Assembly: GCF_024166365.1 (NCBI RefSeq)
Contig: NC_064822.1
Location: forward strand, 142,916,823 to 142,980,822
Origin: Elephas maximus indicus
Taxonomy: Eukaryota > Chordata > Mammalia > Proboscidea > Elephantidae
DNA length: 64,000 bases
Direction: 5' to 3'
The stretch's first letter is position 1; each line of letters starts with the position of its first letter. Shown here in pieces: positions 5,869 to 60,100 of the stretch. The position numbers and the translations under genes were made by a program. A model generated the notes under the pieces. The model saw nothing but the letters and a program-made list of their open reading frames with translations, had not been told where the DNA came from and did not search any database.

Positions 5869-5879
5869 TCAGCAATCCT

Positions 5880-6112: not shown

Positions 6113-6140
6113 AATTGAACTGATATCCTTTGCTTTCCAG

Positions 6141-6188
6141 ATGGAGAAATCAATTGTTCTACTGCTGTGGTTACAATATGTTGTAAAG
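6141..6188 (+). CDS. PTPRQ: PTPRQ long form, exon 1: start codon and signal-peptide-like segment
   Basis: Sixteen codons, [16 protein letters not shown], ending at a gtaaga donor in phase 0, which suits the phase-0 acceptor of the next exon. The basic start followed by a hydrophobic stretch ([11 protein letters not shown]) looks like a secretory signal. The ATG is directly preceded by a pyrimidine-rich tract ending in cag, so this may be the second exon of a transcript with an upstream untranslated exon. It is the least certain exon because it is short; a different upstream start is possible. Confidence 0.62.
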
Positions 6189-9100
6189 GTAAGATAATTT
6201 TGAGCATGCACCTTTTGGCATACCAAAAAATGTTCAAAGCTTTGTAAGCTGGGATTTGTTATAGAGACTGTCGTTATCTGTGATAGTAAATAATGTAAAA
6301 GGTATAAAACTAACTTTTATGATGTGTAATTCATTTTTTTAATTCATGCTTCGTGTATGTGATAAAACATGTCTATATCATTTTAAGCATGTCTGTCATT
6401 TAGTATTAGTAATCACATTGCATATTAATGTGATAAGCTTTTTGATACAATATAACATCTAATAGCTATACAATAGTAGTAAATGTTTTTAATTGATTCC
6501 ACAGTGAAGAAAGCTAAAAGCAAGTAATTCTTATTTTTTATTTATTTTATTTTAAAAAATATATACATATTTATACTTTGTATCTGTGTGTGTGTGTGAA
6601 ATTACAGTGATTCATGTCCTTTGTTAAAATTTGAAAATTTAGAAATTTTGAAGAAAATAAAGGTTATCAATTTCACTACCTAGAGAAAATGTTGTTAATC
6701 TTTTAGTGTATTCAAAATGTTTTATACTGAGTATATATTTTATAATGAATAATTCTATATTTTGAATATGTATTTACTGACTCATAGATTGATAGTGTTT
6801 CCTAGTCTTCTCTTCTTTGACCTAACATTATACAGTGAACATTATCCTTTGTCATTAAAACTTTTAAGTATTTCAGTGACTAATTATTATGTCATTTCTT
6901 CATCTATTCTTTCATCATTTGAATTATTTTATTATTTGATAAAGCAAATTACAATTGTTTTTAAAAACCATGTTAAATTTACTGAATTTGAACCATCACT
7001 TTCAAGGACTGTTCCTTATGGTTGATGATTTTTTTGACTGAGCTACATCACTGATATTCAAATACATGCTTGGTTAAAAAGGGTAATCCCCTCCACTTCC
7101 TCCTTTCATTTTTTGAACACTTGGACACAGTTGATTTGTTTGCTCACACCCCTCTCTGCATCAGTTGTTTTTAATTTTTGTTGTGCTTTAAGTGAAAGTT
7201 TACAAATCAAGTCAGTCTCTCACGCAAAAACTTATATACACTTTGCTACATAATCCCAGTTGCTCTCTCCCTAATGAGACAGCCCACTCCCTCCCTCTAC
7301 TCTCTCTTTTCATGTCCATTTCGCCAGCTTCTAACCCCCTCTACCCTCTCATCTCCCCTCCAGGGAGGAGATGCCAACATATTCTGAAGTGTCCACCTGA
7401 TCCAAGAAGCTCATTCCTCACCAGCATCCTTCTTCAACCCATTGTCGAGTCCAATCCATGTCTGAAAAGTTGGCTTTGGGAATGGTTCCTGTCCTGGGCC
7501 AACAGAAAGTCTGGGGGCCATGACCACTGGGGTCCTTCTAGTCTCAGTCAGGCCATTAAGTCTGGTCTGTGCATCAGTTTTTATTACTTCTTTTAAAACA
7601 TTTATTAAGCCTCAACTGTGTATCAGAAACAATACCATGAAATTGAGAATACAAAAGATCACATTGAGTTGATCTCAATGAGCACATCGTAGGTCTAAAG
7701 GAGAAGACACATTTATAGAGACAATTTCAATAAAGTAAGATAAGTATGATAAATATATATTCATTACTTTATATGTATTACTACACAGTAATATATATAA
7801 ATTATATTTATATATGAATAATATATGAAATATGTGTTATAGTAATATATGACTATTAGGATATTTATGTTACTATATATTCATTACTCTTCAAAAGAAA
7901 AGTAAATATTAGCCAGGTAAGTAGAGTCGTAGAGGAAGAAAAGGATGATTAGGCAGGGCCAGGGAAAATATTTCTGGCTGATATAAGCAAGAGAGTTTCA
8001 GAATTATAAAATAGGGAATAGAATGAGTAAAGGAATGAGGCAAGAAATATCATGGTAAGAAGAATAAATTTTAAGCAGTTCAATAAATTTCTCTGGTCCC
8101 CTAACCAATTATATTGGGTTTGTATCATCTTGAATGCTAAATTTGTATTGAATTTAGTGAATCTATTCTTAACTCCGGAAACCCTGGAGGCATAGTGGTT
8201 AAGTGCTACGACTGCTAACCATAAGGTTCGGCAGTTCGAATCTGCCAGGCACTCCTTGGAAGCTCAATGGGGCAGTTCTACTCTGTCCTATAGGGTCGCT
8301 ATGAGTCAGAATCAACTCGACGGCACTGGGTTTGGTTTTGCTTGGTTTTTCTTAACTTCAAAGTTGCTATGTTAAAAGGAAAAATTAAATCAAAAACAGA
8401 AAAATCAAGTAAAATACCTGACTAAATGAGAGGACAGAAAGGAGAAGAGTGATTTTGTTACTAGTGATTTAGCTGAGGCAGAGAGAGAACAGATTAAGAA
8501 ATAAAAGGATTGTAAGTTTTTCTGTACATTTTTTCCTTTCCAAAAATCATTCGGTGTTATCGTAATGTCTCTCCAACATTTCTTTTCAAGCATTAGGTGC
8601 CTAATGGGAACCTTGTACCTTTGGATATTTCCCATTCAGATTCGGCTTTGGGAGAAGTCAAACTCCTAATTAGGCTTACTTATTGAACAGGGATTATGGA
8701 TTTATTCTGTAGAATTGATGGGTTTATTGAAATATAGCTGGGACCCCACAATAGAGAATCTGCTTCAGTAAGGTGGAGATAAGAAGGAACCCTAGGGATC
8801 CATGTTCCTATTGGGAACACCCAGGTGATTCTGATGCAGGTGATCTGATTCATAGCCTTCTTTTTGGGAACTGCTTCTCTCTCTATAAGCTGACTTGATG
8901 TCCTATAGATTTAGAAACAGTGTTTCTTGAACTTCCCCTGTAAAGAAAGGGTCCACATAGAACTTAGGGGAGTTAAGCACATTTTTGGGAATTCTAGGGA
9001 TATAGTTTAAAGTGCTCACTAAAATTTTCATTACAAAATAATCCTTTAAATTACAAGTTGGAAATACAAATGAAAATGTTTCCACATCTAATGAAAGTAG

Positions 9101-12100
9101 TTGGTCTTGCAAAATTGTATCATGAGATCTTCGGTGTCATTTCTGACACCAAGGCCATATTTTTCAACTACTGATCCTTCTTTGTTTCCAACTTTCACAT
9201 TCCAGTCACCAGTAATTACTAATTCATCTTGATTGCATGTTTGATCAATTTCAGACTGAAGAAGTTGATAAAAATCTTTAATTTCTTCATCTTTGTCATT
9301 AGTGGTTGGTGCATAAATTTGAATAATAGTTGTATTAACTGGTCTTCTTTGTAGGTGTATGGATATTACTCTATCACCAACAGCATTGTACTTAAGGATA
9401 GATCTTGAAATGTGCTTTTTGATAATAAATGCAGTGCTGTTCCTTTTCAACTTGTCATTCCCTGCATAGGAGACCATATGATTGTCTGATTCAAAATGGC
9501 CAATACTAGTCCGTTTCAGGTCACTAATGCTTAGGATATTGATCTTTATGCAGTCCATTTCATTTTTGGTGACTTTCAACTTTCCTCGATTCATACTTTG
9601 TACATTCCACATCATGGTTACTAACGGGTGTTTGCAGCTGTTTCTTCTCATTTTAAATCATGCCATATCAGCAAACGAAGGTTCTGAAAGCTTGACTCCA
9701 TCCACATCATTAAGGTCGACTTGACGTTGAGGACTCTTCCCCAGTCGTATTTTGAGTGCCTTCCAACCTGAGGGGCTCATCTTCTGGCTCTATATCAGAC
9801 AGTATTCCACTCCTATTCATAAAGTTTTCACTGGCCAGTTTTTTCAGAGATAGATCGCCAGGTCCTTCTCAGTCTGTCTTAATCTGGAAGCTTGACTAAA
9901 ATCTGTCCACCATGGGTGACCCTGCTGGTATTTGAAATACTGGTGGCACAGCTTCCATCATCACAGCAACACACAAGCCACCAGAGTATGCCAAACTTCC
10001 AGATGAGTGGTGTCATTACTGCTTTACAGATTATGTTGGGAGTAATCACTGGGGAGAAAGATCACTTTTGGCTAAAGATGTGGTATAGTGGGGCATTTTA
10101 AGGCTGTTTTAAACAGAAATTTTGATAAATACATTGTTCTCCTAAGATTTGAAATCTTTTCTGTCACATACCCATTGCTGTTGAATTGATTCCAACTCAT
10201 AGTGACACTATAGGACAGAGTAGTACTGCTCCATAGGGTTTCCAAAGAGAGATTGGTGAATTTGAACTGCTGACCTTTCTGTTAGCAGCCAGACTCTTAA
10301 CCACTGTTCCTCCAGGGCTCCCTTCTTCTGTGGTCTATCTATTTTACCTAGATTACGTGAGTCAAGTGTTTTTCATTGCAGAGTCGAACATTTTGTATTC
10401 AAACTTATTTTCACTACAAGTTTTTTGTCAAAAATATGTGTAAAATAAGTAAATTTGTGAGTCATTATCATTAAGGTGAGCAATTGACACACCAGGTAGA
10501 GGTGTTTTTTCTTGTGACTTTGAGTCTCTTCCTCTTCTCTAACCCCCGGAACAGAGTGCTTCCTAGTTTGAGAAACATGGGTCTTAAACTTCCTTGCTCT
10601 TATTTTCTTTGCCTTTCTTAAGTCATTTTCAAAATCATATTTATAAATGATTAGAGTATAAGAGTATCCAATTGATAATGTTTAATTCACTTGTGGAAAC
10701 TGAAATGTTTTTCCTTTATAATTTGGCATATGGTTTCATTTTGATAAATTTGCTTATAAAATAATAATGAACCACTTTTATTTCTTACAGTTACTTTTCT
10801 TCCCCCATTTCAGATCTCAAAAAGTTTCCATTATATACCAATGAGTAAGCAGACAACCACTGTTTTTATTGAGTGGAATGAATTTCCTAAGGGAGGAAAT
10901 CCTGAATTTTATTTTTTAAAATATCAACTCGTAAATGATTTTGCTCAAAAAGTAAGGCATCTCTTTTGGTTCTGATAAAAAGTAAGCATAGCATTGTTTT
11001 AACCAAATGCCACATAATAAATAGAAATTTAATAGTTATTTAGATTCTTTTTGTTTCATTAATACATAAAACGTTAGCATTTTATGAAATATAATCTTCA
11101 ATAAACAATTGATCAAATGACTTTTTTTATATAAATGGCTATATATTTACCCTTTTAGAATTTGTATTATACAGAGAGTAATTATTTAAAAAAATCAAGC
11201 ATTTTATCTAAAAACAAAATATTTTATGCATATGCTTATGTTTCATATTGAAAAATTGCTTTTTATGGAGAGGATTGCAAAAATCAGGCTATTAATATAT
11301 CAGACACAGTTAATGCTCAGTAAACATTTCTTAAGTAGATGAATCTGATTACTTACAGAATGTCAAAAGCATTCCTGCAGAACAACAAAAGCTTCAGAAA
11401 TCAATAATAACACTAGAGGAAAATAAAGACTATCACATTACTATACAGTCCATAAAATATGGAAACATTTTAACTGAAAAGTCATTTCAAATCCGTAAGT
11501 AATATGTACATATTGTTCAAATATGACCTAATGATGAAAGGCAAAATGTTTAATTATCAGATAATTTGAATTTTACAGTGATTAACAACTGTTTAATGGT
11601 AGTCCAAATATACATCATTATAGTAATCTTTTGATGTTTAATATAAGGTAAATTCCACAGTTTACAAAGGAATTGTATACTAAAGTAAGAATAAAACTTT
11701 TAGTATTGCTATTTGATATATACTGATAACAATAGATGGTTATAGCAGAGGTGTTACATACAGTCTAGATTATTTAGAAAATATAATGTGGATTTCTAAT
11801 CTAATTCCTCAATTCTATGTAGAGTGCAAGAAACTCCCATATAGTATAGAAAATATGAGTATATAGTAGGTTTTCCCATTTGGTGACACTTTTCTTATTG
11901 ACTGTATGTATATTTTTATTCAGTTTTATTTGAATCATTACTAATTCCTCCTTCTGATTTTTTTTTAGGTGGAGTCTCAACTAGCAATATTAAAACAATA
12001 ATAACAAGTACAAGTGTTTCCTTTAACTGGAGTGTACTGTCTACCAGTGACTTTTCAGTGTCAATCTCTCTTAATAATTTTTCAAAAATTGTACAAAACA

Positions 12101-15100
12101 GTGTTACGGTTTACGAGTGGGGTGATTTGGAGCCTGCATCTTTATATGCTTTTGCATTTGAATTTAAGCAGTTGCAGTTGGATTTTATAAATACATTTCA
12201 GAGACTGGATATTCAAGTTGAAACAGGTCTATAAGTAATTGATTCATTCTAATTAAAGTACTTATTACATATTTTTGACTAATTTGGTGGTTTTATTGCT
12301 CTTTTCAAAAATGGCCTAGCCAAGTATTAACTATTATAAACAGCCTATGGTTAAATTAGCATAGCCTGCTTTTTCTAACTGTATCATTATGGTATTTGAC
12401 TGATTTATTGAAGTAGATTTAGCGGTAAAGGCAAGAGCCAACTTTATTTTCCCACCACCACTTCCTTTAAACCATACCAAATGGACTTTATCTTCCTAGC
12501 TGTAGCAATAATTCATATAGATTTCATATCTTTTTAGGCAACTTTAAGGTATCAATGAGCAGTTTCATTTTCAGGTATTAAAAAGTCCACTGCAGTCTAT
12601 ATAAAAATATCAACCTCTCATCCTATTTAAAGCTTCTCCTTTACTCATCCCTGCTCAGAGTTAACCAAAGCTTGGAATACTGTAGGAGGGAGGGAGACGT
12701 GTTTAATTTTTTGTGTCTTCCCAGTTTCATATCCTGTCCCCACAAGATGGGGACAGATATCAGAAAGAAGGTAAAGTTACAGATGGCTGATGAGAGTAAT
12801 GCACTCTCTGTGATAGACTGAGACCCTTTTTAACATTCTGCTCTGGGAATAATCAAATAGAACCAGAAATCACAATATATGTTGTAAAAGTGAAGTAGAC
12901 AAACATTTGAATAGGAAGAAAAAGATAGTAAAAACAATTAAAACACTCCTTCTCCCGTCCTTCCTCTTCCCCTGTGTAAAACAAAACAAGTTTCTTCTCA
13001 ACATCCTCCTTACATCTTCCAAACGTGTGGAATTGAGGCACTGTGAGGTAAATCAGCACTGTGACGTTGATGTGCAGTGTCTACTCTGAACAGGGTGGTA
13101 TTCTGCCCTGTCCCCCCACCCTTGCCATCTTTCTGTGACATGTGATCTGGAGAAGAAAACTAAGCAGCCAGTCCAGCTTTTTTTCTGGAAGGTGAACATA
13201 TTTGAATTCAAGTGACTGAGGGCAGATTTTTTTTTTTTAATTGTACTTTATGGTGGGTTTATATGAAAGTTTACAGAACAAACTAGTTTTTCATCAAACA
13301 GTTAGTATACACATTGTTCTATGACATTGATTAACATCCTCACGACATGTCAGCACTCTCCCTTCTCAACCCTGGGTTGCTGATTACCAGCTTTTCTGTT
13401 CCCTCCTTCCTTCCAGTTCCTGCCCCAGGGCTGGTGTGCCCCTTTAGTCTTGCTTTGTTCCATGGACCTGTTCAATCTTTGGATGAAGGCTGAACCTCAG
13501 GAGTGACCTCATTACTAAGCTGAAAGGGTGTCCAGGGGTCATTACTCTCAGGGTTTCTCCAGCCTCTGTCAGGTCAACAAGTCTGGTCTTTCGTTTTGAG
13601 TTAGAATATTGTTCTACATTTTTCTCCAGCTCTGTGCAGGACCCTCTATTGTGATACCTGTCAGAGCAGTCAATGGTGGTAGCTAGATAGGCACCATCTC
13701 GTTGTTCTGGACTCAGTCTAGTGGAGGCCATGGTAGATGTGGCCCATTAGTCCTTTGGACTAATTTTTCCCTTGTATCTTTAGCTTTCATCATTTTTCCT
13801 TGCTCCTGAAGGGGTGAGACCAGTGAAATATCCTAGATGGCTGCTCACAGGCTTTTAAGACCCCAGATGCTATTCACCAAAGTAGAATGTAGAACATATT
13901 CTTTATAAACTATGCCATGCCAATTAAGCTAGATATTCCCTGAGACCATGGCCCCCACAGCCCTCAGCCCAGCAATTCAGTCCCTCGGGGAGTTTGGATG
14001 TGTCTGAGGAGTTACCATGGCCTTGCCTTGTACAGCTTGTGCTGGGTTCCCCAGTATTGTGCACTGTCTTACCCTTCACCAAGGTTTCCACTTACCTATT
14101 GTTTATTAAATGTTTTTCTGTCCCTACCCCTCCCCTCCCTTGTAACCATCAAAGATTGTTTCTTTTTGTATGTAAACCTTTTCATGAGTTTTTACAGTAG
14201 TGGTCTCATGTAAATTTGCCCTTTTGTGATTGTCTTATTTCATTCAGCATAATTCCTCCAGATTCATCCATGTTATGAGATGCTTCATAGATTCATCGTT
14301 GTTCTTTATCACTGCGTAATACTCCATCGTGTGTGTGTACCACAGTTTTTTATCCATTCATCTGTTGATGGGCATCTAGGTTGTTTCCATCTTTTTGCTT
14401 TTGTGAACAATGCTGCAGTGAACATGGGTGTGCATATGTCTGTCCCTGTAATGACTCTTATTTCTTTAGGATATATTCCTAGGAGTGGGATTGCTGGATC
14501 ATATGGCATTTCTATTTCTAGCTTTCTAAGGAAGTGCCATATCATTTTCCTAAATTTTTCCCAGTCTATAGGTTCTCTTTTTACTCTTTTGGTAAAGTCT
14601 TTTGATGAGCATAAGTGTTTAGTTTTTAGAAGATTTCAGTTATCTAGCTTATCCTCTGAAGCTTGTGTGTTGTTGGTTGTGGTTTGTGTCCTATTAATGC
14701 CCTGTATTAGGGCCCCTGGTGTTGATCCTATTTTCTCTTCTATGAACTTCGTGGTTTTTGGCTTTATATTTAGATCTTTGTTCCATTTTGAGTTAGTTTT
14801 TGTATATGGTGTGAGATATGGGTCCTGTTTCATTTTTTTGCAGATGGACATGCAGCTTTGCCAGCACTATTTGTTAAAAAGACTGTCTTTTCCCCATTTG
14901 ATGGACTTTGGACCCTTGTTGAAGATGAAGTGACCATAGGTGGATGAATTTACATCTGGGTCCTCAGTTCTGTTCCATCGGTCAATGTATCTGTTACTGT
15001 ACCAGTACCGGCTGTTTTGGCTATCGTAGCTGTATAGTTGGTTCTGAGGTCAGGTATTGATAATCCTCCTACTTTATTCTTCTTCTTCAATAGTGCTTTA

Positions 15101-18100
15101 CTTATCCTGGGCTTCTCCCGTTTCCATATAAAGTTAGTGATAATTTTTTCCATCTCTTTAAAGAATGTTGTTAGTATTTGGATTGGTATTGCATTGTATT
15201 TGTAATTTGCTTTGGGTAGAATTGTCATTTTTACAATGTTGAGTCTACCTATCCATGAGCATGGTATGTTTTTCCATTTATGTAGATCTCTTTTGGTTTC
15301 TTGCAGTAGTGTTTTGTAGTTTTCTTTGTATATGTCTTTTACATCCCTGGTTAGATTTATTCCCAAGTATTTTATTTTTTTAGGGGCTATGTGTATGATA
15401 AATGGTATTATTTTCCTGCTTTCCTTCTCTTCATTCTTTTTATTGGTGTGTAGGAAACCAACTGATTTTTGTATGTTTATCTTGTATCGTGCAATTCTGC
15501 TGAATCTTTCTATTAGTTCCAGTAGTTTTCTCATGGAGTCTTTTGGGTTTTCTATGTGTAGTATCATATTACCCAAAAATAGGAACTGTTTAACTTCATT
15601 ACCAATTTGGTTGCCTTTTATTTCTGTTTCTTGCCTTATTGCTCTAGCTAAGACTTCCAAAACAGTGTTAAATAGGAGTTGTGATAAAGGACCTCCTTGT
15701 CTTTTCCTGTTTTCAAGGGGAATGTTTTCAGCCTCTCTCCATTAAGAATGATGTTGGCCGTTGGTTTTGCATATACGCTGAGTGCAGAATTCTTGGCATT
15801 ATGTCTCATTCTCTAAAATAAAAAGAAAAAAAAATATATTTTACAACATAAAATATATTTTCCCTGCACAAGAGTAAGACAAAGGAAAGGTAGCCTGAAG
15901 TAATTTAGAGAGAAGAACATCTGTAGGTTTTGTTTTACTGAAGTTATAATTGGGCAATGATTTTATATAGTTCTTATAACTACTTAAAAAACCATTTTAA
16001 TTAGTGTAATTCATTTACTACTTGACTAATAGCAGCTTTAACATTTTTATAGCCTTGACAGAAATGTAGAGAAAGTGCACATTGAATACTACCATGTTTT
16101 TATGATTAACTTCTGTGTGTGTTTAACAGATGTAATTATGAAATATTATATTACTGAATTCATCTTTAACAAAGCATATTTCTTTTGGTAGGCTCATGCT
16201 CACAAGGATGGGTAGCGCTAAAAAATAACTGTTACAGAATTAGTAAAGAGAGTAAGCCATGGAATATAGCCCAGCGACATTGTAATTTATCCTTAAGTTC
16301 TGCACATCTTGTGGATATAAAAAATGAAGAGGAAAAAATTTTTATATTTTCACATCTCAGGTCAAAGAATCAAATAATAGTATGGACTGGTCTTAGTGAT
16401 TTAAAGGTCAGTAAATGTAAAGAAATGCACATAATGTGATAAACAGAACTTTATTTTACCTGTATCCATTCATTTATTTATTCTTTTCATTCATTGTGCA
16501 TTTATTCATTCAATAAATGCTTATTGAATATGTCTTATGATTCCTTAATTTTGGTCTTCATCAGGTCTCTTTTAAATTCATTTGAGTAATTGCACCCATT
16601 TCTTCACTTGATTTACCACCTAAACCATTTATTCTCAAATTTGTACCTAGCCCACTTTCCTCTTCTGAACTCCAGACGTATATCGAATTTTTATCTGATT
16701 ATCCCTTTTGATATTTCCCTCAGGCACTTTAACATTGCCCAAAATGAACTTAACATCTCTCCCCCACCACCACCAAACCAGCTCCCCTTCTGACCTCTGT
16801 GAATGATATAAAGCCCTGGTGGCACAGTGGTTAAGAGCTATGGCTGTCAACCAAGAGGCTGGCAGTTCAAATCTACCACCTGCTCCTTAGAAACCCTGTG
16901 GGGCAGCTCTACTCTGTCCTATAGGGTCACTATGTGTTGGAATTCACTTGGTGGCAATGGGCGAACAATATTTCTCCATTTTATTGCTTTCATTCCACAC
17001 ATCCAGGCTGTGGAGCTTAGTGTTACTAAAAGAGATGGAGAAAGCTCTGAAGATTTTGTTTAATATAAGTGAATTAAGGAGTGTGTGGCATTTTTATTTA
17101 GCATTCCTAACACTGTGGAGTAGCTCATTAAATTTCATTTTGGTCAGCATTTGTAGAGAAACCCTAGACCTAACACAGTCATCTCTGCACAGCCTGTGCT
17201 TTCTCAAGGGTCCATTTACTTACACTTCCTGCTTCTCAAAGATAAATCTGTTCTCCAGGGGATGTGCTTATCTGTAGTGACCCAAGGCAAATCCTATCTG
17301 TTTGATACCAACTTTTCCGTGGAACTGTGCATCAGCTTGGAAAAAACTCTTCACAATTTTTAATTGCATTTTTCATCATTCTTTTACTGAGCTTTTTTTT
17401 TTTTTTTATCTTTTAATAAGCAGTGAATGAAGTTCTAGTAAAGGTTCCTCAAGCCACAGTTCATTTCATTTCAGGCATCTCAGTCTCCCCTCCTCCTCCT
17501 CTGCTAATAGCTGAGTCTAATGGCACCTTCTAAGTGCCAGGCACCATTCTGCGTGTTTTAGTGTATGATGTATGAAGACATTGTGGCCCAGAGAGGTTAA
17601 TTTCCCGTATGAACTCGCATCGGAGTCAGCTCTTAACCACTGTATCCTGCAACCTCTGCACTGAGCTGGTCTCTTGAGGCTAACATCCAAGTTGCCTGCT
17701 GGGCCATAATCTCCATGGTAGACTGAGAAAGTAATAACCCCTTTAAGTAAACTCATGCTGATTGAGTGTGAGTTTGTTGTTAGACTTTAAAGATAAAAAG
17801 TATGTCTTATTCAGCATGCATTTTTAGGTTCCAATTGGGGTCTGGCATTCAATGAAGGATTACCAGTCCCACTTTTTATTTTTTTCACTTTTGGAGGGCT
17901 ACATAGGTTACCCTCATTTAATCTGTGCAACATGCTTATGAGGTATATACTGTCACTATTCCCATTTTATAGATAAGGAAAATGGAGCTCAGAAAGATTC
18001 TGGGTCACATAGCTGATAAGAGGCAATACCAGCCCTTGAACCTGTTTCTGTCTGACCTTAAGCACTTGAACATACTGCCTCTGAGCCTCTGCCTGTTTTA

Positions 18101-21100
18101 AAAACTATAGCACCATATATGTAATAAAGCAGACTTTTTGATGGAACAATTGGTATTCCATTCTCCTAGATGGACTTGAAATGTGTTTTAAAATCTCTTT
18201 AGAATGTCTGGAGGTAGCAGTTCTTTTTAATCCTCTTTCATGCAACTACCTTGGCTGTGTGTTTGATGCTGGGGATGGCATGAAAATTGCAATATAGACA
18301 TAGTCTATTTTCATAGTTCTTATTGTCTGTATAAGAATCATGCTTATTTTTGAGGAGCTATTATGTGCCTTATGTTTTGTACGCATACGGTCTAAACCTG
18401 TTGACAACATGCAAAGTAATCATGATTATCCACTGTACAGGAGAGAAAGAAAACGTAGTTTTTAAGAGATTCCACAGTTGCCCAAGAATAGATGGTAAGT
18501 GGCAGAAATATGGTTAGAATCCAGGTGTATCTTTGTCAAAGCTTAAACTTTTCCCCTTTCAGGGAGGGTAGACATATAACTATTTAGAGTAATGTTCGTT
18601 ACTTTGTGAGGATTGAGTTTGATGACATTCACTGGTGACACCCCTTAGCAGAATGGTGGTTAAGAAGGTATCAACAACCTCTTTTGATATATTTGACAGA
18701 TTTGATGACTTTAAACAATAATAACTAACATTTAACAAATGACTCAGCATTATGCTGAGCCCTTCACATGCATTGCCTCTCTAATTCTTTCCACAGCCTT
18801 AAGAAGTGGGGTTCTATTATTATGCCCATTTTACAGATGAGAAAACAGGGACTTAGTGTGAGATTCAGCAGTTTGCCTGAAAACATATGACTTAACAGTG
18901 AACTCAAGTGAACTGTGTATCCAGCTCAACATTGTTATTTCTAAGGAAATCTCTGTAAAATTATTAAGTCCATTGCTATTTTAAAAGTCATAGAATGTTT
19001 TAAAATAGGGATGTGAATAATCAAAATTTTCAAATACACATTTTTGTAATGAAGTAATTGAAGATACGACTCTAACTTTTCCTTTTAATTGGCTTAATTT
19101 CTACCTCTTGTTACAGAAAGAAGGCCATCTCACTTGGACAGATGGATCGTCTTATAGCCTTAAGAAAAATGAAATATTTTCTTTTCCACTGTTAGCAAAG
19201 AATGAAACAGATTGCTACATTTTACAGCAAAATGCAACTGGATTGAACTATTTCTTTACAAGATTTTTCTGTTATGTTCCATTGCCATATATTTGTGAAT
19301 ATGAATGTAATTATTTTTATTACTGTCCTTATATTCAGTAATATTACTTTTTTATTATTTAAAATTATTTAAAATTCAACCTTATTTTTTTCAGCACTTT
19401 CTCTGCAGGAAAACTTTTCGTTCTATGTAAAGAATGTTGGGACAACTGAAGTTGTATTTAGTTGGAATAAATTGAGTGGTTGGAATTACTTGAATAAGTG
19501 GCTGCAACTGGGATATAAGATTATCATTAAATATTATTTATGTTATACAGAAGAACAATATTTTGAAAGCATGCCCCCAAATACAACAGAAAAAGCAATT
19601 ACCGGACTGTCTCCTGGTCGTATTTACAGATTTTTGCTCTTCGCAATAAATAAATGGGAGGCAAAAACTACTTTAAGTCCAGTATTCATAGTAGAAACAC
19701 GTAAGTTACAAGACATCTGAAAGTATTACTTTTCAAATATCTAGTGGTTAAGAGCTACGGCTGCTAACTAAAAGGTCGGCAGTTCAAATCCACCAGGCGC
19801 TCCTTGGAAACTGTATAGGGCAGTTCTACTCTGTCCTATAGGGTCACTATGAGTTGGCATCGACTCAATGGCAGTGGGTTTTTTTTTTTTTTTTTTAGTG
19901 AATAGTTCCCGAGGGTCTAGTATTTTCTCATAGCACTCTGGGCATACCTGTATCTTTTACCATTTTTAATTATGACAGATGTGTTTATGTGTGTAGCTTC
20001 CCTGTTAGATTATAAATCATGTGAAGTAAAAAACTATGACCGACTTGTCTTATAGCCCCAGCCAGAATAGTGCCCAGTCCATAGCAGATACTCAGTGTAT
20101 TTTGTGGAACTGAATTTTTGACATGTTCTAAGAGTAGGAGACAGACAGACATGCATCTGTATCTTCAAGAGACTTACAATTTAAAGTATCGTTGTTGTTA
20201 GGTGCTGTCGAATCAGGTCCTACTCATAACCACCCTTTGTACAATAGAAAGAAACAGTGGCTGGTCCTGTGCCATCCTCGTGATCATTGTTATGCTTGAG
20301 CCCATTGTTGCAGCCACTGTGTCAATCCATCTCATTGAGGGTCTTCCTCTTTTTTCACTGACCCTCTACTTTACCAAGCATGATGTCCTTCTCTAGCGAC
20401 TGATCCCTTTTAATAACATGTCCAAAGTATGTGAGACGAGGTCTCACCATCTTGCTTATTAAGGAGTATTCTGGCTGTACTTCCTCCGAGACAGTTAAAG
20501 AATTAAGAAGGAATAAAAGTTAAAGCTATCAGAACTACAGAGAAAATATAATGATCTAGATGTCAGTCAGTAAATGCTTACAGGAATTTAGAGAGTGAGG
20601 TGATTGGGGAAGACTCCTGACATGGAATATTACACTCAAGGCTTAGCCTTGGCCTTGAAGGAAGAAAAGCATGCTGTGAACTAAAGTGCGGAGACGTGAA
20701 TTGGTGGAAGATGAATAGTGCAGATTTACTGAAGATTTCCTCAGGCACAGGGGTAAGATCGGTTTGAGGGGTAGGTGGTGTCATATTTCGGAGTGTCAGA
20801 GGTATCTGTCTCAGATGATTGGACTTGACCTTGAAAGCTGTGGAAATCCATTCAGACCGTAGTTTCTAAGATTTGCTTTAGATTAACACTTTTATATATA
20901 TTATCTCACTCAATTCTTATCCCAACCCTGTAGAGATGAGAAAACTGAACTTCAGAAAGGTTATGCAAACCGACTGGAGAACACGCATTGTTCAGTAGCA
21001 GAGCCACAGGGGATCCCAGATGGTCTTAATTTACCTTACAGCTCCTAAAAATAGAATCGAGAAGAGCATGTGCGCATGAGGGTGTGAATTGGGGGCTGGG

Positions 21101-24100
21101 GGATGAACATAGATCTGAGGCCTATATGTGCAAGGTATTGTTTTAAGAAAATTAATCTTGCTGGTTTAATTAGGAAGATTAATGGCACTGAATGAAATAG
21201 TTTGGAGTAGGGCCTTATTTCTGTGACTGAGTGCCTGAGTTTGGGTGATGGTGGGAATGAGGAGTGAATAATAAGTCCTTGCCTTCTAGTCTGACAAAGC
21301 AGGACAGGTGGAAAGGCCATGCTACATGATTGTCGAATGCCTCAAGTGCCATTTTGGTGGTGTGGATAACAAACAATATATTGAACAATTAGTGTGTGTT
21401 AGACACTGTGCAAGGAGCCCTGGTGGCACAGTGGTTAAGCACTTGGCTGCTAACTGAAAGGTTGGAGGTTTGAACCTACCAGCTGCTTCATGGGAGAAAA
21501 GACCTGGAGATCTGCTCCCATAAAGATTTCGGCCTGGGAAACCCTACAGGGCAGTTTTACTCTGTCATAGGGTCACTGTGATTCAGAATGGACTCGACAG
21601 CACACAACAACAATAAGCATCGTGCCAAGTCCTTTACATTCGTTATCTCATTTTAACCTCATAATAATTTTAAGAGGCAGCTACTAGTATAATCCCCATT
21701 TTACGATCTAGACAACTGAGGCTCACAGAGTAGTAATTTACCCAGGGGACAGAGCTAGAAAGGCTAAGAGCCAGGAGTTAAGCCCAGTGTTTCTTTCTGG
21801 GCTAGTATGGAAGCTCTTAGCTCATATCACTAATACACATTTTTTTCTCACTTTTTTCCTATAGGCCCATTACCAGCCCAAAATTTCAGAGAAACTTATG
21901 TGACTCCAGCAGAAATATTTGTACACTGGGATCCTCCAGATCCTGTATCGTTTCATCATTATCTTGTGACTATTTTAGATGTTGAAAACAATAGATCAGA
22001 AGAGCTGTTTGTTGAAAAACTCAACACAACGACAATGATTGGAAATCTCAAATCTTTTCATCATTATCTGATATATCTATTTAGTGTAGCGGAAAGAGGA
22101 ACTTTAAGCAGCTTTGAGAAACCTATTTCAACTATTACAGGTAAGCAAGGGCACATTTTGCCTTTTAATTAATAAAAGATATAAACTGCATACAGTATAT
22201 CAAAATATTATTTTGATGAAATCTTATTTAGTTTACCCTTAGTAGGTACAAATACAGTTGAATGTTTGAACATTAAATCAAAATTCTAAACATGGGTTCT
22301 AAATTCTAAAGTCATTTACATGTACATGAACTTTTTAAACATTATTCTGATCTAATTTGTTTTTGGAAATCCTGATGGCATAGTGGTTAAGAGCTATGGC
22401 TACTAACCAAAAGGTAAGCAGTTTGAATCCACCAGGAGTTCCTTGGAAACTCTATGGGGCAGTTCTGCGCTGTCCAGTAGGGTCACTCTGAGTCAGAATC
22501 AACTCCATGGCAGTGGGTTGGGTTTTGGGAGTTTGTTTTTACTAGGTTCCTCGAAGACTTTTTCCTTGCCATAGCTTTGGCTGAGAAAATAAATTATCTT
22601 AAGATATAAAAATGAGTTTATCCAGTAATTTTTAGTAACACTAGATACAACAAGTAGGTCTGCACAGTTTGACCAGTTTTACTTTCCTCTTCATTTTCTT
22701 ATTACCACTGAGACTAGTGTGACAAGTTGACCTCTAGGGGGCAGTATCATTCTAGGAATTTTTGCAAATGTATGACTCATCTCCACTCACCTCCACATGG
22801 CAGTTTTTGAATCCTTGGTGGTTAAAAACAATCTACCTTTTCATTAATCCCTCTATTTCTACCCCTAAAAAAAAAAAAACCCTAAGTATGAGTAATTTTT
22901 TTGAAAAGGTAAAATACTATTTATTATATGAATCAATATCTGGCACGTAGTAGGCATCCAATATATATTTGATAAAAGAATGAATAACCTCAATAATGGG
23001 ATCATTACTCTTATGGAACCCTTACAAATTCGAAGAACTTGCCAAACACTTGAAGATTCTATTTCTATTTTTCCTGGAGTTGTAATGTTTAAGTTTATTA
23101 ATAAATATTGTGTGATAATAATGAGATACATTTTTCTTCAAAATTGAATGCTTTTCAAGACATGGCAACATACAGATTTGCTACATTTACTTTAAACATA
23201 AATTAATATTGAATTGAGATTTTTTACTCTGCATGAGTAATGTTAACCAAGGTATGGGTATCTATTTATCTGTTTCTCTAAGGTATTAATCCACCTCAGA
23301 AAATTTATGCTAAACCTGAAGATGTGGGAGAAGACAGCATAATTCTTCAGTGGGAACCCCCACAAGATGGCCATGAGTTCTACATTCAAACAAAATCCAT
23401 ATCAAATACAAGCAAAATAATGCAGCATTATATAAAAGATAAAAATAGATTCAAGATTGATAATTTAATCCCTGGAATGATTTATGATTTTGGAGTAGCA
23501 ACAGTGATTAATGGGAACTTGAGTGAGCTGGTAACTATTCAACAAACTCTAAGTGAGTTTTCATTCTTACCTGATATTTGCTGATTTGGGGATATTGTAA
23601 AATATTTCCTGCCTTACCCCTTCAGCCATAGGCTGTACTTTTCAAGTATATTTTTGGTGTGCTTTATTTATCCTAGGACCTGAAACAAGGCCTTTTTTTC
23701 CTGAAAATTCTCCATGCTTATTCAAAGGCAACATTTTCTTGTGATTAAGAGCGTGACCCTAGAGCCACACAGCCATGGCTTGAATCCGAGTTCCACTATT
23801 TGGGAAACCCCTGGCATCATTCAATAAGTAATCATTTGAACATTTATCAAGGATGGAGAAAGAAAATAAATAAATGCCAGCTCTCCGTTCTTGTTGAGAA
23901 GTAACAGTCTTAACAACAATAAACCCTCTCATAGTGCTTGAGGAGATACGGCCACTCATAGCAGGAAGAAAAGCCATTTCAGCTGTCTGTGTGGGTAACA
24001 TGTCTCTCTGTGCCCAGATTGTCCTGAGGGTAGGAGAGCTGTGGGAGATCTGTGCTTGGGGTCCCTTTTCTTCTTCTGTGTGTGTAGAAGAATAATTTTT

Positions 24101-27100
24101 TAGGATAGACTAGACATCCCTGAGGTGTCACTCTACCTTTGGAATTATAAAAGTCTTTGAATTTGGCCTAGTTTAATTCATCTTGTATTAAAAAAAACTT
24201 CCTACAGCCCTGGAGCCTCCACTTCTTTTGAAAATACTTTTGCAGGACAAGGGATAAGGCTAGAGGTCACAGTCACAGACCAAATACAGTTAATACCTTT
24301 TTTTGTAAATTGAAATCTGCTCTCATCCAAGTTTCCAGTGGTGAAGGATATAGACATATAGATATATAGGCAGACCCGTACCCCAGTCTACACCTTTCTG
24401 GCCTTGGTGGCACTCTGTTTTTAATATCATACGTTAAGATTATTGGCTCTCTTTCCTAGGAAAGTGAAATTAACGGGAAACCACGTTTACTGGCTGGAGT
24501 GAATGTCACCTACTCTTGGGCTGTCACTTTCACAACTTAAATTACATTATGCTTGTTTGAAGCCTTGACTCTCCTTAGAAAATATCTGGAGCACCTATGA
24601 CCATAGAAGTGAATTGTTTCCATGATTATACTGGTCATTCACTCGTCTTTTTTTTTTTTTTAACTTCTTTTTGGGCATTTACTTCTAACCCCCAAATCTT
24701 TAATTCCTGCTCAAGGCACCTCGGAAGCATTCACAGATCATTACCCACAGATTTAGATGGATCAGATGTTTGTGGGATGTCACCCTAGCCCTGGAAAAGC
24801 CATAGTTACTCTAAGAGCTTTGTAACTGAAGAAAGAGATGAGGAATTTAAAGAGGAAACTCATATCAAACATCAGTGATAACAAAAAAAAAAGTTAAAAA
24901 AAAATATAACTAGAGAAGGAAAAACATGAGAAGAGTACCTTGAAAGCTAGTAGTATTCTGTATGGGATTTGTCATAGCTAGGATATTGGTGGTGTAGTGG
25001 TTAAGTGCTATGGCTGCTAACCAAAGGGTTAGCAGTTCGAATCTGCCAGGCGCTCCTTGGAAACTCTATGGGGCAGTTCTATTCTGTCCTGTAGGGTCGC
25101 TATGAGTTGGAATCGACTCGACGGCATTAGGTTTGGTTTTTTTGCTTTAGGATACTGAACATTTTCTTATCACTGCCAAGGATAAAAAAGGCAAGCCAGA
25201 TACATTTTACAGGTGATGAGTTGAGATTCATGGAAACGTTACACTGATTTTATGTTCTGGAATGCTAATTATAGATATGTGTTTAAATCCTTTTGTCCTG
25301 GCTCTTGTGAAGCACCAGAATCATGTTATCAAATATTTAACAATGACTTAGAGCAAGTTTCGTTGCATCAAAACAGCTGTCACCAATAAAACTGAAAAAG
25401 AAAGGCTGTCCAATTATTCTCTGGAGGAATATATCTATTTAGAAGAAAGACTGACTTAAGGATTCACCGCATGGCATTCCAACAATACAGAAATGGAACT
25501 GATATTAAAATTGACCAGAGGAAAAATAATTGATTGGAAATTGTCTAAAATTCAAATCTGCTTAAATAGCACAGTGGAGTATTAAGGTACAACAAAGACA
25601 TTTAATAGAGGTTACCCAGACCCAGTTAGGGAGTATAAAATGAAAATAGATTCTTCCTTCAAGCTGTTGCCCGAATGGTATTTCTAAAAACAAGATGACA
25701 TGCCTGCTCAAAATCTCTATTGCCTACAGAATACAATCTGAGCTCCATAGCATGGCAGGCAAAGCCCCACACAGTGTGCAGCCTCAGAGGCAGCCATTTC
25801 AAGCCCAACCCCTGTTCCTCATACATACCGCATGCTTTAACCAGCCTGAGTGCTTGCCGCGTGCCCGGCACAGCGCTAAGCACTTTATGTATAAACGTTG
25901 GTGTTGTTGCTAGTTGCCCTCCAGTTGGCTCCAAAGTCTTGTGACCTTATGTATAACAAAAGAAAACATCGCCCCGTCCTGAGCCATCTTCATGATATTT
26001 GGTATATTTGAGTCCATTGTTGCAGCTGTTATGCCATTCCATCCTTTCACGGGTTTCCCTTGTTTTTGATGACCATCTACCAAAAGTGATGTCTATTTCT
26101 AGAGATTGATCTTTCCTGATGAAAGTATCCAGCTTATGGGAGGTGAAGTCTCGCCATTCCTAAGGAACACTCTGGTTGTATTTCTTTTAAGACTCTATAT
26201 ATACAACCATTTAATCATTACAATGATCCTACAAAGTGGTATCAGCCTCCTTCTCACTGTAGGGAGGAGGAGACCAAGGCACAGCGTGGCTAAATAACTT
26301 GCCAAAGACTACCCGACTGGCAGATGGCCTAAGAACTTTGTTATTCCCTGAACACATGGGGATGCCTTTTTTGGGTCCCATGCCTTACTCGTACTTTTCT
26401 CTTTGCCTGGAATTCTTTTGTCACTGCTTCTCCTTTCTCCCTACTCACACACATGTTCCTGGTAAACTGGTACTATTTTTCAAGACTCAGATAAAACATC
26501 AGTTCTGGAAAGCCTGCCCCAATTATCTCTGGGAGAATTGCTGATTTCCTTCTCTGTTTTTATCAGCTTTCTGTTCCTGTCAGTAGCTCAGCACTGACCA
26601 TTTGGGATTCTGGTTAGTGATCTTTGCATCTCTGTTCTGAGATTGAGGACTTTTGAAAACAGGAACCTGACCTTATTTATTCAAGCATTTTTCCTAGTAT
26701 AGGTTTTCAGTAAATATTTGCTTAATAAATAGATAAAAAGTGAAAAATTGGAAAGTCTCTCAGATTCTTCTGTTTCTCAAACTGTTATTGAAAATTTCGG
26801 AAGTTAATTTTTTTTATTATATGTGCATTTACTGTCAGAGTATCTACCTTATTTCTCTAAGTCTGACATAGTAAGCGTAAGTTGAATGCATAGACATTGA
26901 ATTTTTATCACAGATTCAGCAATACGCTGGACCAAATACAGAGAAATATGTTTGAAAATTTAAAAGTACTAATTATAAATCTTTTCTCTCTTTTCATCTT
27001 TCAGAGCCTAAACCAGTCCCCATTGTTATCCCCTATGAAAATCATGGTACCTCTGTAACCTTATTTGTTCAAATGCCTGATATTGGAGTGTTTGATGGCA

Positions 27101-51100: not shown

Positions 51101-54100
51101 TACTCATGGTGACCCTATGCACAATGAAACCAAACACTACCCGGTCGTACACCATCCCCATGATCAGTTGCATATGGGACTGTTGTGATCCATAGGATTT
51201 TCACTGGGCTGATTTTTGGAAGTAGATTACCAGGCCTTTCTTCCTAGTTTGTCTTAGTCTAGAAACTCTGATGAAACCTGTTCTGCATCATAGCAACGCA
51301 CAAACCTCCATCAACAGACAAGTGGTGGCTGCACATTAAGTGCCATAATTTTTAATATAAATTACATATAATATATTATTATATTATATTTATATAATAT
51401 AATATATAAATTATATATAATATAAACTATTTATAAATCATAGCCCTGGTGGTGCAGAGGTTAAGCGCTTGGCTGTTAACCAAAAAGTTAACCAAAAAGT
51501 CAACAGTTTGAACTCATCAGTAGCTTCATGGGAGAAAGATATGGCAGTCTACTTCTGTGAAGATTTGTGCCTTGGACCCCTATGGGCAGTTGTACATATA
51601 ATATAAATGAAATTTTAAAACAGTTTGAGGCTATTGTTCTTTTGTTCTTTTAGTGCCTAAGCTTCTGAGTCAGTCTACCCTCCTTATCATTATGTGAACT
51701 TCCCTTAGTCATTCAGCCTCTCTCAGCCCTAAACTCCTCTTTGGTGAAGATAAGAATGATCACAACCCCTGTCTTGCAGTGTTAATTTATGTGAACGTGA
51801 CTAATACGAAGTCCATGCTAAGTAAATCCTTTTCAAACTGTGAAAAACATAAATTTATTTTTCTCTTTCTCCAGATATCCTATCATATGACATCTCAAAA
51901 GGAAAAGCTATTTCAAATAATCATTTATGGCAACAAAGCCAAAGTAAAGAATTTGACACCGGGTGTGGACTATGTATTTCACGTGAAGACAGTTAGAGGC
52001 AAAGATTACAGTGTTGTATCGGTAGTGAAAAAAGTGACTACAAGTAAGGAAACCTCATAAATATAGTCTTTCCTTTCTAATCATGTAATTCTTGAAAGTA
52101 TTTTCGTTCTGCATAATTAAAGCTATTTTAAACATAAAGCCTGAACATTAAGGAAAAATAATGATCACAAGAATACAATTAAAAGAACTCTCCAAAACAT
52201 GGAGTTTTTATATATCTAAGTTGGTTGGAAGTACATCAAGTCTTTTTTAAATAATCTGAAGACTTTTGTTGGTTCCCAGAAGAGTTGTTTATGTTATAAT
52301 GAAGAATTTACTTTTATAAAATTTAGACACATGCTCCTGCTACAGATTCTTAAAAGTCCCTCAACCTGCTGAAAAATCTCTGCCCCAGAATGGGAAAATT
52401 GATCTCCCCTGGTCATCCAGGTGGGCAAATTGGCAAGCTGCGGCCACAGTGTAGCAAAGGGAAGATAAGAGAGGAAGCCCTATCCGGACCAATGGCATAC
52501 AGAAGAGCAGTCACAAGCAACAAAAGTGAGCCAGGGACTGTCCCCTTCCCTGCTCAAGTTTTGCTGAGTGTCTTAGTCATCCAGTGCTGCTATAACAGAA
52601 GAAAAAAAAAACTGAAGCCAACATATATACATGTATCTCTGTATGTACATATCATGTATATTGGATAGAACATGTATGATATCTAAATATATATCATAAT
52701 GATAAAGATACAACTCATTTTCTACTGAGCTAGAGTTTTGACAAGCAGAGCACTTCTATCTTCTCTTCCATGATGTTTGTAAATTTACTGTAAATCATTT
52801 TTGCAATGTCTTGGGGTAGCGTGGAGTGATAGTATTTGTTACCAACTATTGTGAAAGCTTGTGAGGTTTATAGGGTCCACTCTCATTTAGAGGAGAGTAA
52901 ATGACAAATGAAGGAAAAATATCAGGGATACAGGAATATTAAGTACTTTGACATAACCAAGAAACCCCTATTTAAAAATGCCCTTATTGCTGGACCTTAC
53001 TCCTCCCTCTCTAACTCATTTGTTTTGTTTCCCTTTCATTCAACATCTAGCTCTCTGCAAGTTGGTAGCTAACAAATCTGAGATTATGTTGTAGATATGT
53101 CTGGTCACAAGCATTCAGGAGGCCCAAGTATAAAAAAATGACTTTTTTGGTAGTGATTTATAATTAAGAGTAAGATATTTGGGAATTAGGGAGGATGTTA
53201 TGGTGCCACTTAAATTGAAACCCACCTGTAATGTCCTATTTATTTTCAGAGTGGACCATGCAGGACATCATACATGAAAAAATTCATTGATTATTACATT
53301 CAGATTTGATTAATATTATTCATGTTTTGCTTAATTTTTATATAATATGCATGCAATTTTTATTTACATATAATTTATCTTTTTGATAGAACCATCTAGG
53401 ATATGTGGCTTAACTTTAAAAGCTGTGAATACTACTTCTGCAAATTTAACGTGGAATCCAACAGAGACCAACTTCACTCATTACAAGATTGGTGTATCAA
53501 ATAGAACATTTACAAAAGAGTATCTTATTTGGGGAGCTATGACTGAGCACACAGTTACAGATCTAACTCCTGGTGGAATATATAACATCACAGTTCAGAG
53601 AGTGAGAGGCAATGTTGAAGGCTCTGGCACAGTTATCAGGGTTGTTGCAGGTATGCAAATATTTTTTGATGTTTAAAAAGTTCACATTTATATTGCATAT
53701 TGTACCATTCAAGGTAGAATTTCAATGAATTACAGAATTACAGTTTATGGAATATTTCAGGAATAAAAATATTAATCTTACTGGGATATTATGAGGATTA
53801 ATGAGATGACACATAAAACGTAAATTGGGTGGAAGTATCTGGCATATGCTCAGTGCGCAATAAATGTAGCTAATGTTATGCTCACTTCCAATCAAATTAA
53901 AGGTCTAAAAAAGTGGAAAATTAGGTGGAAGATTTGAGAACCATCTATTCTCCTAAAAACATACTCTTTTTCTTTAAGGCCTTACTCTGTGATGTACACT
54001 GGGGATATACACGTGAGAAAACATAGTCATAAGATGTTCAGAGAGTAAATAGGGAATGTAAGTTTGGAGATACGTGTCGCACAAAACGGAGCAATAGATG

Positions 54101-57100: not shown

Positions 57101-60100
57101 TGACTCCCAGTGACCCTATAGGACAGAGTAGAACTGCAGTGCTTGGTGGATTCGAGCAGCCAACCTTTTGGTTAGCAGCCGTAGCTCTTAACCACTACAC
57201 CACCAGGGTTCCATTTAAAAAATACAAGTTAGATTATTTTTTTGCCTAATATTCTTCAGTGGCTTCCTATTGCATTTAGGATAGTAACATCTAAAATCTT
57301 TTTATGGCCCTTCTCTCTCTTTCTCATTCTATCCTAGAACCTCAGTCTGGTTTTCCTCAGTTCCTCCAAATTCTTTCCATTTCCAGGCTTCCATCCACTC
57401 TGCTTTAAAGGTCTTTGCCAAACTCTCCGTGAGCTTCTTTCTGCTCATCCCTTCATGCCTTGTTTTAAGTGTCATTTTCTCAGAAAGGTCTTCCCACTTG
57501 ATCAGATTGGCAACTTTCCAGACAAATATATTCTTCCTCCCCTTGGTAAGACACACTTCTTCCCTAGCCAGGAGTCCTGCAGTGTGTAATTTTAAACCCC
57601 AGTCTAGGAAAACACATCCCATATTCACCACCATCCTGATAACCAGCCCTTCACCTCTTACATCTTCGTTCATTTTTCAGTCTCAATCCAGGTCTTTTTT
57701 AGTTTCTTGCCTAAGACTTCATACGCAACCCCACCCAGTGCCGTTGAGTCGATTCCGACTCATAGCGACCCTATAGGACAATCATAGATAATAGTTAATT
57801 CCCTAGACCCCTCAAAAATAATATTAGCTCTCACATAAGCCAGTAAGTATGAGTACTAATTGACTGAACTCGTCAATCATAGTAGGCTTTTGTCTATTTT
57901 AATGTGGGCTGGTGCGGAGATTCAAGCTATTTTCTCTGAAGCTTGAGAATACAGAGGACACAGATCTATGTACAGAATAATTTAAGAGAAGCACCCAAAG
58001 CCTATGTGCCGCAAAATAATTTTACCCATCACTGAGTGTGTATTTCTCTGATCTTTCACCTTGGATTTATAATACTTGTAAAGAGTTATTAGAAAACTTC
58101 AGTACTTACTACATGGACAATTGGGCAATGATGCCAAGAGAATATTTCTATCTTTGAGGATACTGGGGTAGAAACAAATCAGTTGAAATCAGTTTAGGGT
58201 GCTGGGTAGAAGATTATATTATAAACATTACAGGAACCCTCAAAGGAGATAAAACACACACACACACGCACACACACACACACTTTAAAATTACTCTCCC
58301 CGACGAATACCAAGAATTTGACCTGTTATTTAAGATTTATTTTTTATGCAATATACCCTATCAGTTTTGTTAGGAAATGTATTTTTTTTTAATATGTCCA
58401 TTTTCAGATGATCCCTGTTAATGGGGTTTTAAAATGATAAATGGGGTTTAATGATTAATTCCAGACTCCTTTCTTTTGGAAATAGGCCTGTGTCAGGTAT
58501 GTTTTTCACATGCTTTTGGTTCCACAATATCTCTTCCTCCCCCTATACTGTTTGTCTGGAATCTGAGCTAAAGATAAGGCAGAGTGAAAACCTGAGTCAT
58601 TCACAACTGATCATAAGAACTTTATGTGGAAGACTCCCTTCAAGGAGGTACAGACCGCATTAAAAAAACCAAAACAAAACATTGAAAACAGTGGAAGCAA
58701 AGGTTGAAAAATTTGGTCGAAATGGCTAGGACAATTGGTAATTAGCGTTTAAAAACTGTCACATTTCATTTTTAATATGAAAACTTATCTTTTCTAGTAA
58801 ATGAATGCCTAACTGAATATTCATCAGGAATGCTCACTGTTTAAAAAATTTAACAGATTTTGGCTATTCTGTACTTTTTTCTAATTACCTTCTTTTGTTT
58901 GGTAAATATCTAGGTAATCAGGTAAATAATTTGTATTTAAAGATGATTCAGTTCTTCAACTAGAGCATAGGCTTTCAAAAGCAATTTGGTCAACCAACAG
59001 ATTTTAGCAGATGAGGAATATCCTAGAAACAGGTACATAAAATGTATGTTATTTCTGGTAATCATACTAAGTACAAAGCTAAGTATTGGTAAAGATGTGC
59101 ATACCTAACACCTAGGTATGGTTACAGATAATTTATAAGACTGAATGCTTTCTAACAATGCAGTTCTTTTGAAACTTGATCCTTAGAGTATGGATTTTCA
59201 TTTTTTCTTTGAAATGTTAGATGAATAATTCTATTTAAAAACTCTATTTTCATGTATTAGAACCGGAAAAACCTGGGAGGCTGAAAGCCTTCAATATTTC
59301 TGCACATTCCTTTTCTCTGCACTGGAGCCTGCACTCTGGCCATGTGGAAAGGTATCATGTGGATCTTGTTCCTGACAGTGGCTTTGTTACTGTCAGAGAT
59401 CTTGGAGGTGGAGAGTATCAGGTATAGCTTTCATTATAGAACTTGCCAAGCCAACTTGTATTTGTACTGGGTCCTAATAGGAAAGTTCTCTATGAAACCC
59501 ATCCACCCTGAAAAGCTATTCCTTTATTGGTGTTTTAAAGCATAAGATGAAGACAAAAACATTGATGACGAATTGATGAGTGTAAGTTTCAGCATCAGTG
59601 GACTGTTACCTTAGCAACGGCTATGCCTTTTTTTTTTTCACATCTACTCTGAACCTAGAGCCAGTCATCCAAGTGTTCATGAATAGTTTAACAAAGAAAG
59701 GGCAGAGCTATTGAGTAATCCGGACTCATTAATTGTGTACTTGCCAGGAGGATCTGTCTTTAAATCATTAATGCAGGCAACATTTCTCTCTAGAGCCATC
59801 AATGTGATTCTACTGCCTGAAAAATGTAATAATGATGGATTTTCTTATTATTTTTCTTTTACTTTTTATTGGAACTTCAGAGACACAGGTATTTCATTTA
59901 CACTCTTGAAAGTAAGGGCTAAGCAATGGGCTATACATTTCTTAAGACTGTTAAATAGTTGTTTCTTATGGAAATGAGCTAGATTAGATAGAAATACTGA
60001 TTTAATCTTCAGTAAACCGTGTTTTATAATTATATTGCATATTATTTGTTAAATCAACTCAGTGGCAACAGGTTTGGTTTTTTTTTGTTAAATAGTTATG

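Follow-up and report, generated by a model that had tools for sequence, protein, structure and literature searches.

At which exon does the gene for the receptor phosphatase PTPRQ begin? The question is raised by 64,000 nucleotides of the genome of Elephas maximus indicus (NCBI RefSeq assembly GCF_024166365.1, contig NC_064822.1, positions 142,916,823 to 142,980,822 of the forward strand), the whole of which is called the window here and is numbered from its first letter. An initial annotation claimed that 18 exons upstream of the familiar PTPRQ start join in phase, over 3306 nucleotides without a stop, and continue in frame into PTPRQ as a 1102-residue N-terminal extension. The exon model that we rebuilt returned the same figures, i.e., 18 exons with their first base at 6141 and their last at 59421, 3306 nucleotides, 1102 codons and no stop in the joined frame, which is in phase with the PTPRQ coding exons at 60277-60388 and then 61038-61264. 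The extension is real and intact, and it is very probably coding; its last exon completes a fibronectin type III (FN3) domain that is cut at the annotated start. We consider it likely that these exons belong to PTPRQ as its 5' coding region and that the gene has two alternative N-termini, one for a long and one for a short transcript.

Two probable starts of PTPRQ

The junction 59421/60277 divides the eleventh FN3 domain (FN3-11). The half encoded by exon 18 alone matches positions 2-42 of the Pfam fn3 profile (21.8 bits), the half encoded by exon 60277-60388 alone matches positions 46-81 (19.0 bits), and the two joined match positions 2-81 of 84 (42.1 bits). The halves are complementary. The short protein thus opens partway through a domain of which exon 18 encodes the missing half.

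The initial annotation placed the annotated start at exon 60277. The shared sequence does begin there, but it is preceded by a signal-peptide exon of its own at 59835-59888, which the initial inventory overlooked although its 18 upstream exons stand. We take the annotated PTPRQ to open with an 18-residue leader followed by VDVSN, and this leader lies within the intron that separates exon 18 from exon 60277-60388. By published human variants, L8 lies in exon 1 and c.55-2 in the acceptor of intron 1 (PMC9310072), and Y30 and Y93 belong to exons 2 and 3, respectively (PMC11349657). In the short form read from the window, residues 8 and 30 are L and Y and the first exon ends after codon 18, as in human, and there is then a shift of one residue (Y93 becomes Y94 and the published P56 becomes P57). 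The agreement of these positions supports the identity of the leader at 59835-59888, which also has a higher hydropathy peak than the leader of exon 1 (3.8 versus 2.1).

Presumably the short form starts from an internal promoter. The human variant c.16_17insT has the alias 128insT (PMC9310072), which implies a short-form 5' leader of about 111 nucleotides in human. A stop at 59805 precedes the short leader in its frame, and therefore a long transcript that read into the 59835 exon in this frame from a point 5' of 59805 would terminate there. The two starts are probably alternatives.

Exon model and reading frame

The exons were rebuilt with the end points known, by means of splice-site scores, phases, FN3 patterns and reading of the sequence. 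A strict splice scan gave six candidate exons, some of them overlapping, and the remainder came from relaxed thresholds, FN3 patterns and reading. All 18 exons have AG acceptors and all 18 have GT donors. The alternative frames contain 86 and 96 stops, counted over a 20-exon join of 3645 nucleotides; the open frame alone would be an unfair test because the exons were chosen for openness. An acceptor-like AG stands immediately 5' of the ATG at 6141, and if it is used as an acceptor, there is at least one non-coding 5' exon further upstream. A crude scan of 5001-6140 found no TATA-like match.

The intron phases fit the gene. They are 1:1 in six FN3 domains of the extension, 1:0:1 in FN3-7, FN3-9, FN3-11 and the C-type lectin-like domain (CTLD), 1:2:1 in FN3-8 and 0:0:1 in FN3-1, the last because this domain comes after the signal-peptide exon; the pattern 1:1:1 is absent from the FN3 domains. 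A mix of 1:1, 1:0:1, 1:1:1 and 1:2:1 was reported for the FN3 domains of PTPRQ by Chicote 2017 (PMC5336234), so that the phases of the extension are of the published kinds, apart from the 0:0:1 of FN3-1.

How long could such a frame stay open by chance? When the 3306-nucleotide frame was mutated without selection (substitutions only, 1000 copies per divergence), 302 copies were free of stops at 1% divergence, 28 at 3%, five at 5% and none at 10%. Few copies stay open past about 3%, and therefore constraint cannot have ended long ago; the simulation bounds the date at which constraint was lost and is no proof of present use. A genome_contigs scan of bacteria and archaea with exon 8 only (91 of the 1102 residues) gave 77 pattern matches and no relative.

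Domains of the extension

The extension encodes a putative signal peptide, one CTLD and ten FN3 domains (two of them weak), to which exon 18 adds the N-terminal half of FN3-11. In the assembled protein of 1215 residues, Pfam fn3 was matched in 10 stretches (E 5.1e-86). With the fn3 cut-off at 25 bits, FN3-4 (25.6), FN3-5 (32.4) and FN3-11 (42.1) pass singly and FN3-3 (24.0) and FN3-6 (22.6) fall below, while FN3-7 to FN3-10 scanned together gave four fn3 stretches with 150.8 bits. By reading of the sequences, the core tryptophan is present in 10 of the 11 FN3 domains, the exception being FN3-6, and the tyrosine of strand F also in 10, FN3-8 having F. As a control, exon 17 was predicted by AlphaFold to have the FN3 fold (pLDDT 67.5; one of five models good), and this model matches solved FN3 structures (best E 9.5e-06).

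The CTLD occupies residues 194-328, is encoded by two exons (5 and 6) and covers positions 2-106 of 107 in Pfam Lectin_C (1.3e-12, 48.9 bits). The hallmarks of long-form CTLDs are six cysteines and a WIGL-type motif. The domain follows this pattern, with cysteines at residues 196, 207, 224, 298, 317 and 325 and an intact WTGL standing for WIGL. The CTLDs of LY75, the phospholipase A2 receptor and the mannose receptor are among its best PDB sequence matches; unlike those long-form domains, it sits between FN3 domains and lacks the calcium/sugar motif.

The R3 receptor phosphatases are the obvious comparison. PTPRB, PTPRJ, PTPRH and PTPRO have FN3 chains with phase-1 boundaries, as in the extension, and the extension has the FN3 repeats expected of an R3 ectodomain. 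The transmembrane segment and the single cytoplasmic phosphatase domain of this class would be encoded past the end of the window. However, the ectodomains of these four are described as FN3-only, with no CTLD, and the R3 ectodomain as a whole is said to consist solely (PMC10815196) or exclusively (PMC5242461) of FN3 domains, from which the extension departs by its CTLD. Judged from the predicted domains, the FN3-only description suits the short PTPRQ alone, and the long form would thus be a variant of the R3 class. The word "lectin" is absent from the main text of PMC5336234 and PMC5242461, the term C-type lectin in the passages of PMC10815196 refers to CLEC2, and in the open-access collection searched, the titles and abstract openings of the 11 papers that name both PTPRQ and C-type lectin make no link between them. 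A CTLD in PTPRQ may well be present already in current RefSeq or Ensembl models.

Comparison with human PTPRQ

The reference human PTPRQ, of 2,299 residues, has 45 exons (PMC11956499, PMC4412678). It has equivalents of the first exon 59835-59888 and of exons 60277-60388 and 61038-61264; its N-terminus falls inside an FN3 domain, and it is without the 1102-residue extension and the CTLD. However, a human gene of 58 exons is also in print (PMC9310072 and PMC11349657, both citing Schraders 2010; PMC5932988, citing its reference 2), and its approximately 13 further exons are like the upstream extension of the window. The variants Arg457Gly and Tyr497X have the "current" names Arg239Gly and Tyr279X (PMC9310072, PMC7819242), a shift of 218 residues. 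PMC11349657 places these two variants in exon 19, and the same table assigns c.745 to exon 6 and c.977 to exon 7; therefore 12 or 13 extra exons are implied, consistent with 58 minus 45. The published tables conflict, with Arg457Gly and Tyr497X in exon 10 in PMC9310072 and PMC5759675, and L8 in exon 15 in PMC11349657 and in exon 1 in PMC9310072.

A second numbering goes further. In PMC11956499, catalytic-domain residues are called Arg2790, Cys2879 and Arg2885, and skipping exon 41, which ends at c.6453, removes 42 residues including Arg2790; the shift relative to the reference is therefore about 639-680 residues. The residue numbers that accompany PDB 4IKC (Yu 2013, as cited) likewise belong to a protein longer than the reference, as here. 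These models were mapped onto the window by simple counting, with shifts of 218, 176 and 679. The model shifted by 218 residues would start near window residue 867 (exon 14) and the one shifted by about 639-680 near residues 405-446 (exons 7-8); this is cross-species arithmetic, in which an error of a few residues is possible. By this count, these older human models would not reach back as far as the CTLD and the FN3 domains nearest the N-terminus, and a CTLD goes unmentioned in the cited passages on them. According to PMC6815010, Eisenberger 2018 sequenced alternatively spliced exons as well, and predicted potential PTPRQ coding regions.

The initial annotation had allowed that a published long form would make the extension known rather than wrong. 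This is partly so, in that a partial human extension is in print, but a CTLD in PTPRQ was not found in the papers searched. The extension is undescribed in the titles and abstract openings on PTPRQ alternative first exons, upstream exons and isoforms, among the matches listed. As far as the literature was searched, two points are new: a CTLD close to the tip, and a divided FN3 domain as the reason for the position of the reference start.

Features of the locus and its surroundings

The exons with their phases, the domains, the complementary halves of FN3-11 and both candidate first coding exons are present in the window (Table 1).

Table 1. Probable coding exons at the 5' end of PTPRQ in the window
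Feature	Position	Strand	Content
Exon 1 (coding)	6141..6188	+	16 residues, putative signal peptide; 9-residue hydropathy peak 2.1 from residue 4
Exon 2	10814..10951	+	FN3-1, first half
Exon 3	11359..11494	+	FN3-1, second half
Exon 4	11969..12226	+	Single-exon FN3-2-like domain, the weakest domain
Exon 5	16192..16406	+	CTLD, first half; CSQGW, NNCY, RHC, WTGL
Exon 6	19117..19306	+	CTLD, second half; TDC, FFC, YIC
Exon 7	19395..19700	+	FN3-3 (Pfam 24.0 bits)
Exon 8	21865..22140	+	FN3-4 (Pfam 25.6 bits)
Exon 9	23283..23552	+	FN3-5 (Pfam 32.4 bits)
Exon 10	27005..27265	+	FN3-6 (Pfam 22.6 bits)
Exon 11	29052..29182	+	FN3-7, first half (phases 1:0:1)
Exon 12	29363..29492	+	FN3-7, second half
Exon 13	30518..30668	+	FN3-8, first half (phases 1:2:1)
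Exon 14	32625..32731	+	FN3-8, second half
Exon 15	36283..36380	+	FN3-9, first half (phases 1:0:1); 15.5-kb intron next
Exon 16	51875..52043	+	FN3-9, second half
Exon 17	53390..53650	+	FN3-10
Exon 18	59261..59421	+	FN3-11, first half; unspliced read-through gives a stop after one codon
Alternative (reference) first exon, coding part	59835..59888	+	54 coding bases, 18 residues, short-form signal peptide; GT after 59888
Shared exon (reference exon 2)	60277..60388	+	FN3-11, second half
Shared exon (reference exon 3)	61038..61264	+	FN3-12, part

The longest intron of the extension (36381-51874) splits FN3-9. Upstream of exon 1, a LINE-1-like element occupies 459-5250 on the minus strand, with a Pfam RVT_1 match at 459-950 and open reading frame pieces up to 3794. 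It adjoins a GC-rich segment, at about 4501-5500, in which CpG is raised, and this segment is more likely the 5' part of the LINE than a long-form promoter.

Other repeats are scattered among the exons. Five copies of a SINE tail have at most three mismatches (8295 and 25096 on the plus strand; 34831, 37711 and 57769 on the minus strand), where none is expected by chance, and a looser pattern adds a sixth at 16926 (plus strand); we take this tail to be AfroSINE. Minus-strand open reading frame fragments at 9088-9657 and 41474-41887, presumably of RTE/BovB type, gave no Pfam match at 0.001. Further minus-strand RVT_1 fragments lie at 14950-15741 and 45639-45914, the latter just below the curated cut-off. 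Taken together, the SINE tails and LINE fragments point to a mammalian, probably afrotherian, genome. Scans of the window with Rfam (at the gathering threshold) and for tRNAs gave no matches.

Weighing the explanations

Several observations weigh against PTPRQ having the long N-terminus described above. With a simple matrix, the donors of exon 4 (-2.0 bits) and exon 6 (-1.5 bits) score low, as do the acceptors of exons 3 and 13 (about -2 bits); by the same matrix the exon at 61038, which is shared PTPRQ sequence, has an acceptor that is even lower (-7.3 bits). Neither a 5' exon nor a promoter was located for the long form, and near 59835 a crude scan gave no TATA-like match, CpG island or raised CpG. 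FN3-1 reaches only 16.2 bits in Pfam, below the cut-off, and FN3-2 has no Pfam match in a single-domain scan. Against a profile built from FN3-3 to FN3-11, FN3-1 reaches 13.6 bits, compared with 8.5 for the best of 200 shuffles, and FN3-2 reaches 7.8, compared with 7.2 for its best shuffle (196 of 200 scored), and the AlphaFold model of exon 4 alone, made from a single sequence, is poor (pLDDT 46.9). The assignment of FN3-2 is weakly supported, and the domain at 11971-12225 may be a diverged FN3 or another beta-sandwich.

The EPN, QPD and WND motifs were absent in a motif check of the CTLD sequence. EPN or QPD, together with WND, are the motifs of the calcium-dependent sugar-binding C-type lectins, and classical calcium-dependent sugar binding is therefore not expected here; by its residues, the domain is one with the CTLD pattern that would not be classed as a classical lectin. 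Hair-cell PTPRQ, moreover, has been described as a 275 kDa antigen (PMC9900141), which is nearer to the short form.

Could the exons be a relic, i.e., those of an ancestral longer PTPRQ whose transcription was lost in this lineage, with mutations that have not yet disabled them? The weak splice sites would suit this explanation, and so would a reference human protein that begins downstream at an exon of its own. However, the 1102 codons have no stop or frame break, all 36 splice dinucleotides are intact, the six cysteines of the CTLD and the core tryptophan of all but one of the FN3 domains have been kept, and few neutral copies are still open beyond about 3% divergence, so we regard a relic as improbable. 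Even less probable is that PTPRQ starts at 59835 and that the upstream exons form a separate gene, for a secreted CTLD-FN3 protein whose end lies within exon 18 or shortly beyond it. Retention of the intron after exon 18 would indeed bring a stop after one codon, and PTPRQ does possess its own first exon, but a protein of this kind would break off halfway through an FN3 domain, and exon 60277-60388 encodes exactly the half that it lacks, in matching phase.

It is a serious possibility, somewhat short of an even chance, that the whole extension including the CTLD is already a routine annotated isoform and nothing new, which would be compatible with two alternative N-termini. Automated gene predictors would probably detect exons as clear as these. 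The published numbering, however, reaches only to about residue 867 or to residues 405-446 of the window protein, the R3 ectodomain is called solely or exclusively FN3 in the two papers cited above, and the titles and abstract openings in the open-access collection searched are silent on a CTLD in PTPRQ.

If PTPRQ does have two N-termini, the long transcript would start upstream of 6141, contain exons 1-18, skip 59835-59888 and join 60277. Its product would be a type I receptor some 3,380 residues long (1102 + 2281, assuming a remainder of human length), with a CTLD close to the N-terminal tip and roughly ten and a half FN3 domains more than the short form. At about 3.5-4 nm per FN3 domain, it would reach about 40 nm further from the membrane. 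The short transcript, from an internal promoter upstream of 59835, would give the known 2,299-residue form, in which only the C-terminal half of the first FN3 domain is present. The CTLD near the tip would be ligand-binding, and the choice of promoter would set both reach and ligand. What we infer is the promoters, the reach, the ligand binding and, in this species, that either form is transcribed at all.

Significance

Variants of PTPRQ lead to the human deafness forms DFNB84A and DFNA73 (PMC11956499). PTPRQ is part of the shaft-link complex, and it is undecided whether it forms links itself (PMC4281357). A bolder proposal, which we regard as doubtful, is that the full-length PTPRQ of many mammals is a CTLD-tipped protein of about 3,380 residues and the 2,299-residue form the product of an internal promoter; the CTLD could then bind FN3 domains on a neighbouring stereocilium without calcium and so make shaft connectors, and deafness panels of 45 exons would miss up to 18 coding exons. 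The binding of tenascin FN3 domains by a lectican CTLD (PDB 1tdq), a structure that appeared among the matches of the FN3 model, is a precedent for CTLD-FN3 binding, and its application to PTPRQ is speculation.

In conclusion, the upstream exons explain why the reference protein starts in mid-domain. If the long form is expressed, the receptor would be about half as long again, with a candidate ligand-binding tip, and some of its coding exons would lie outside panels built on the 45-exon reference.

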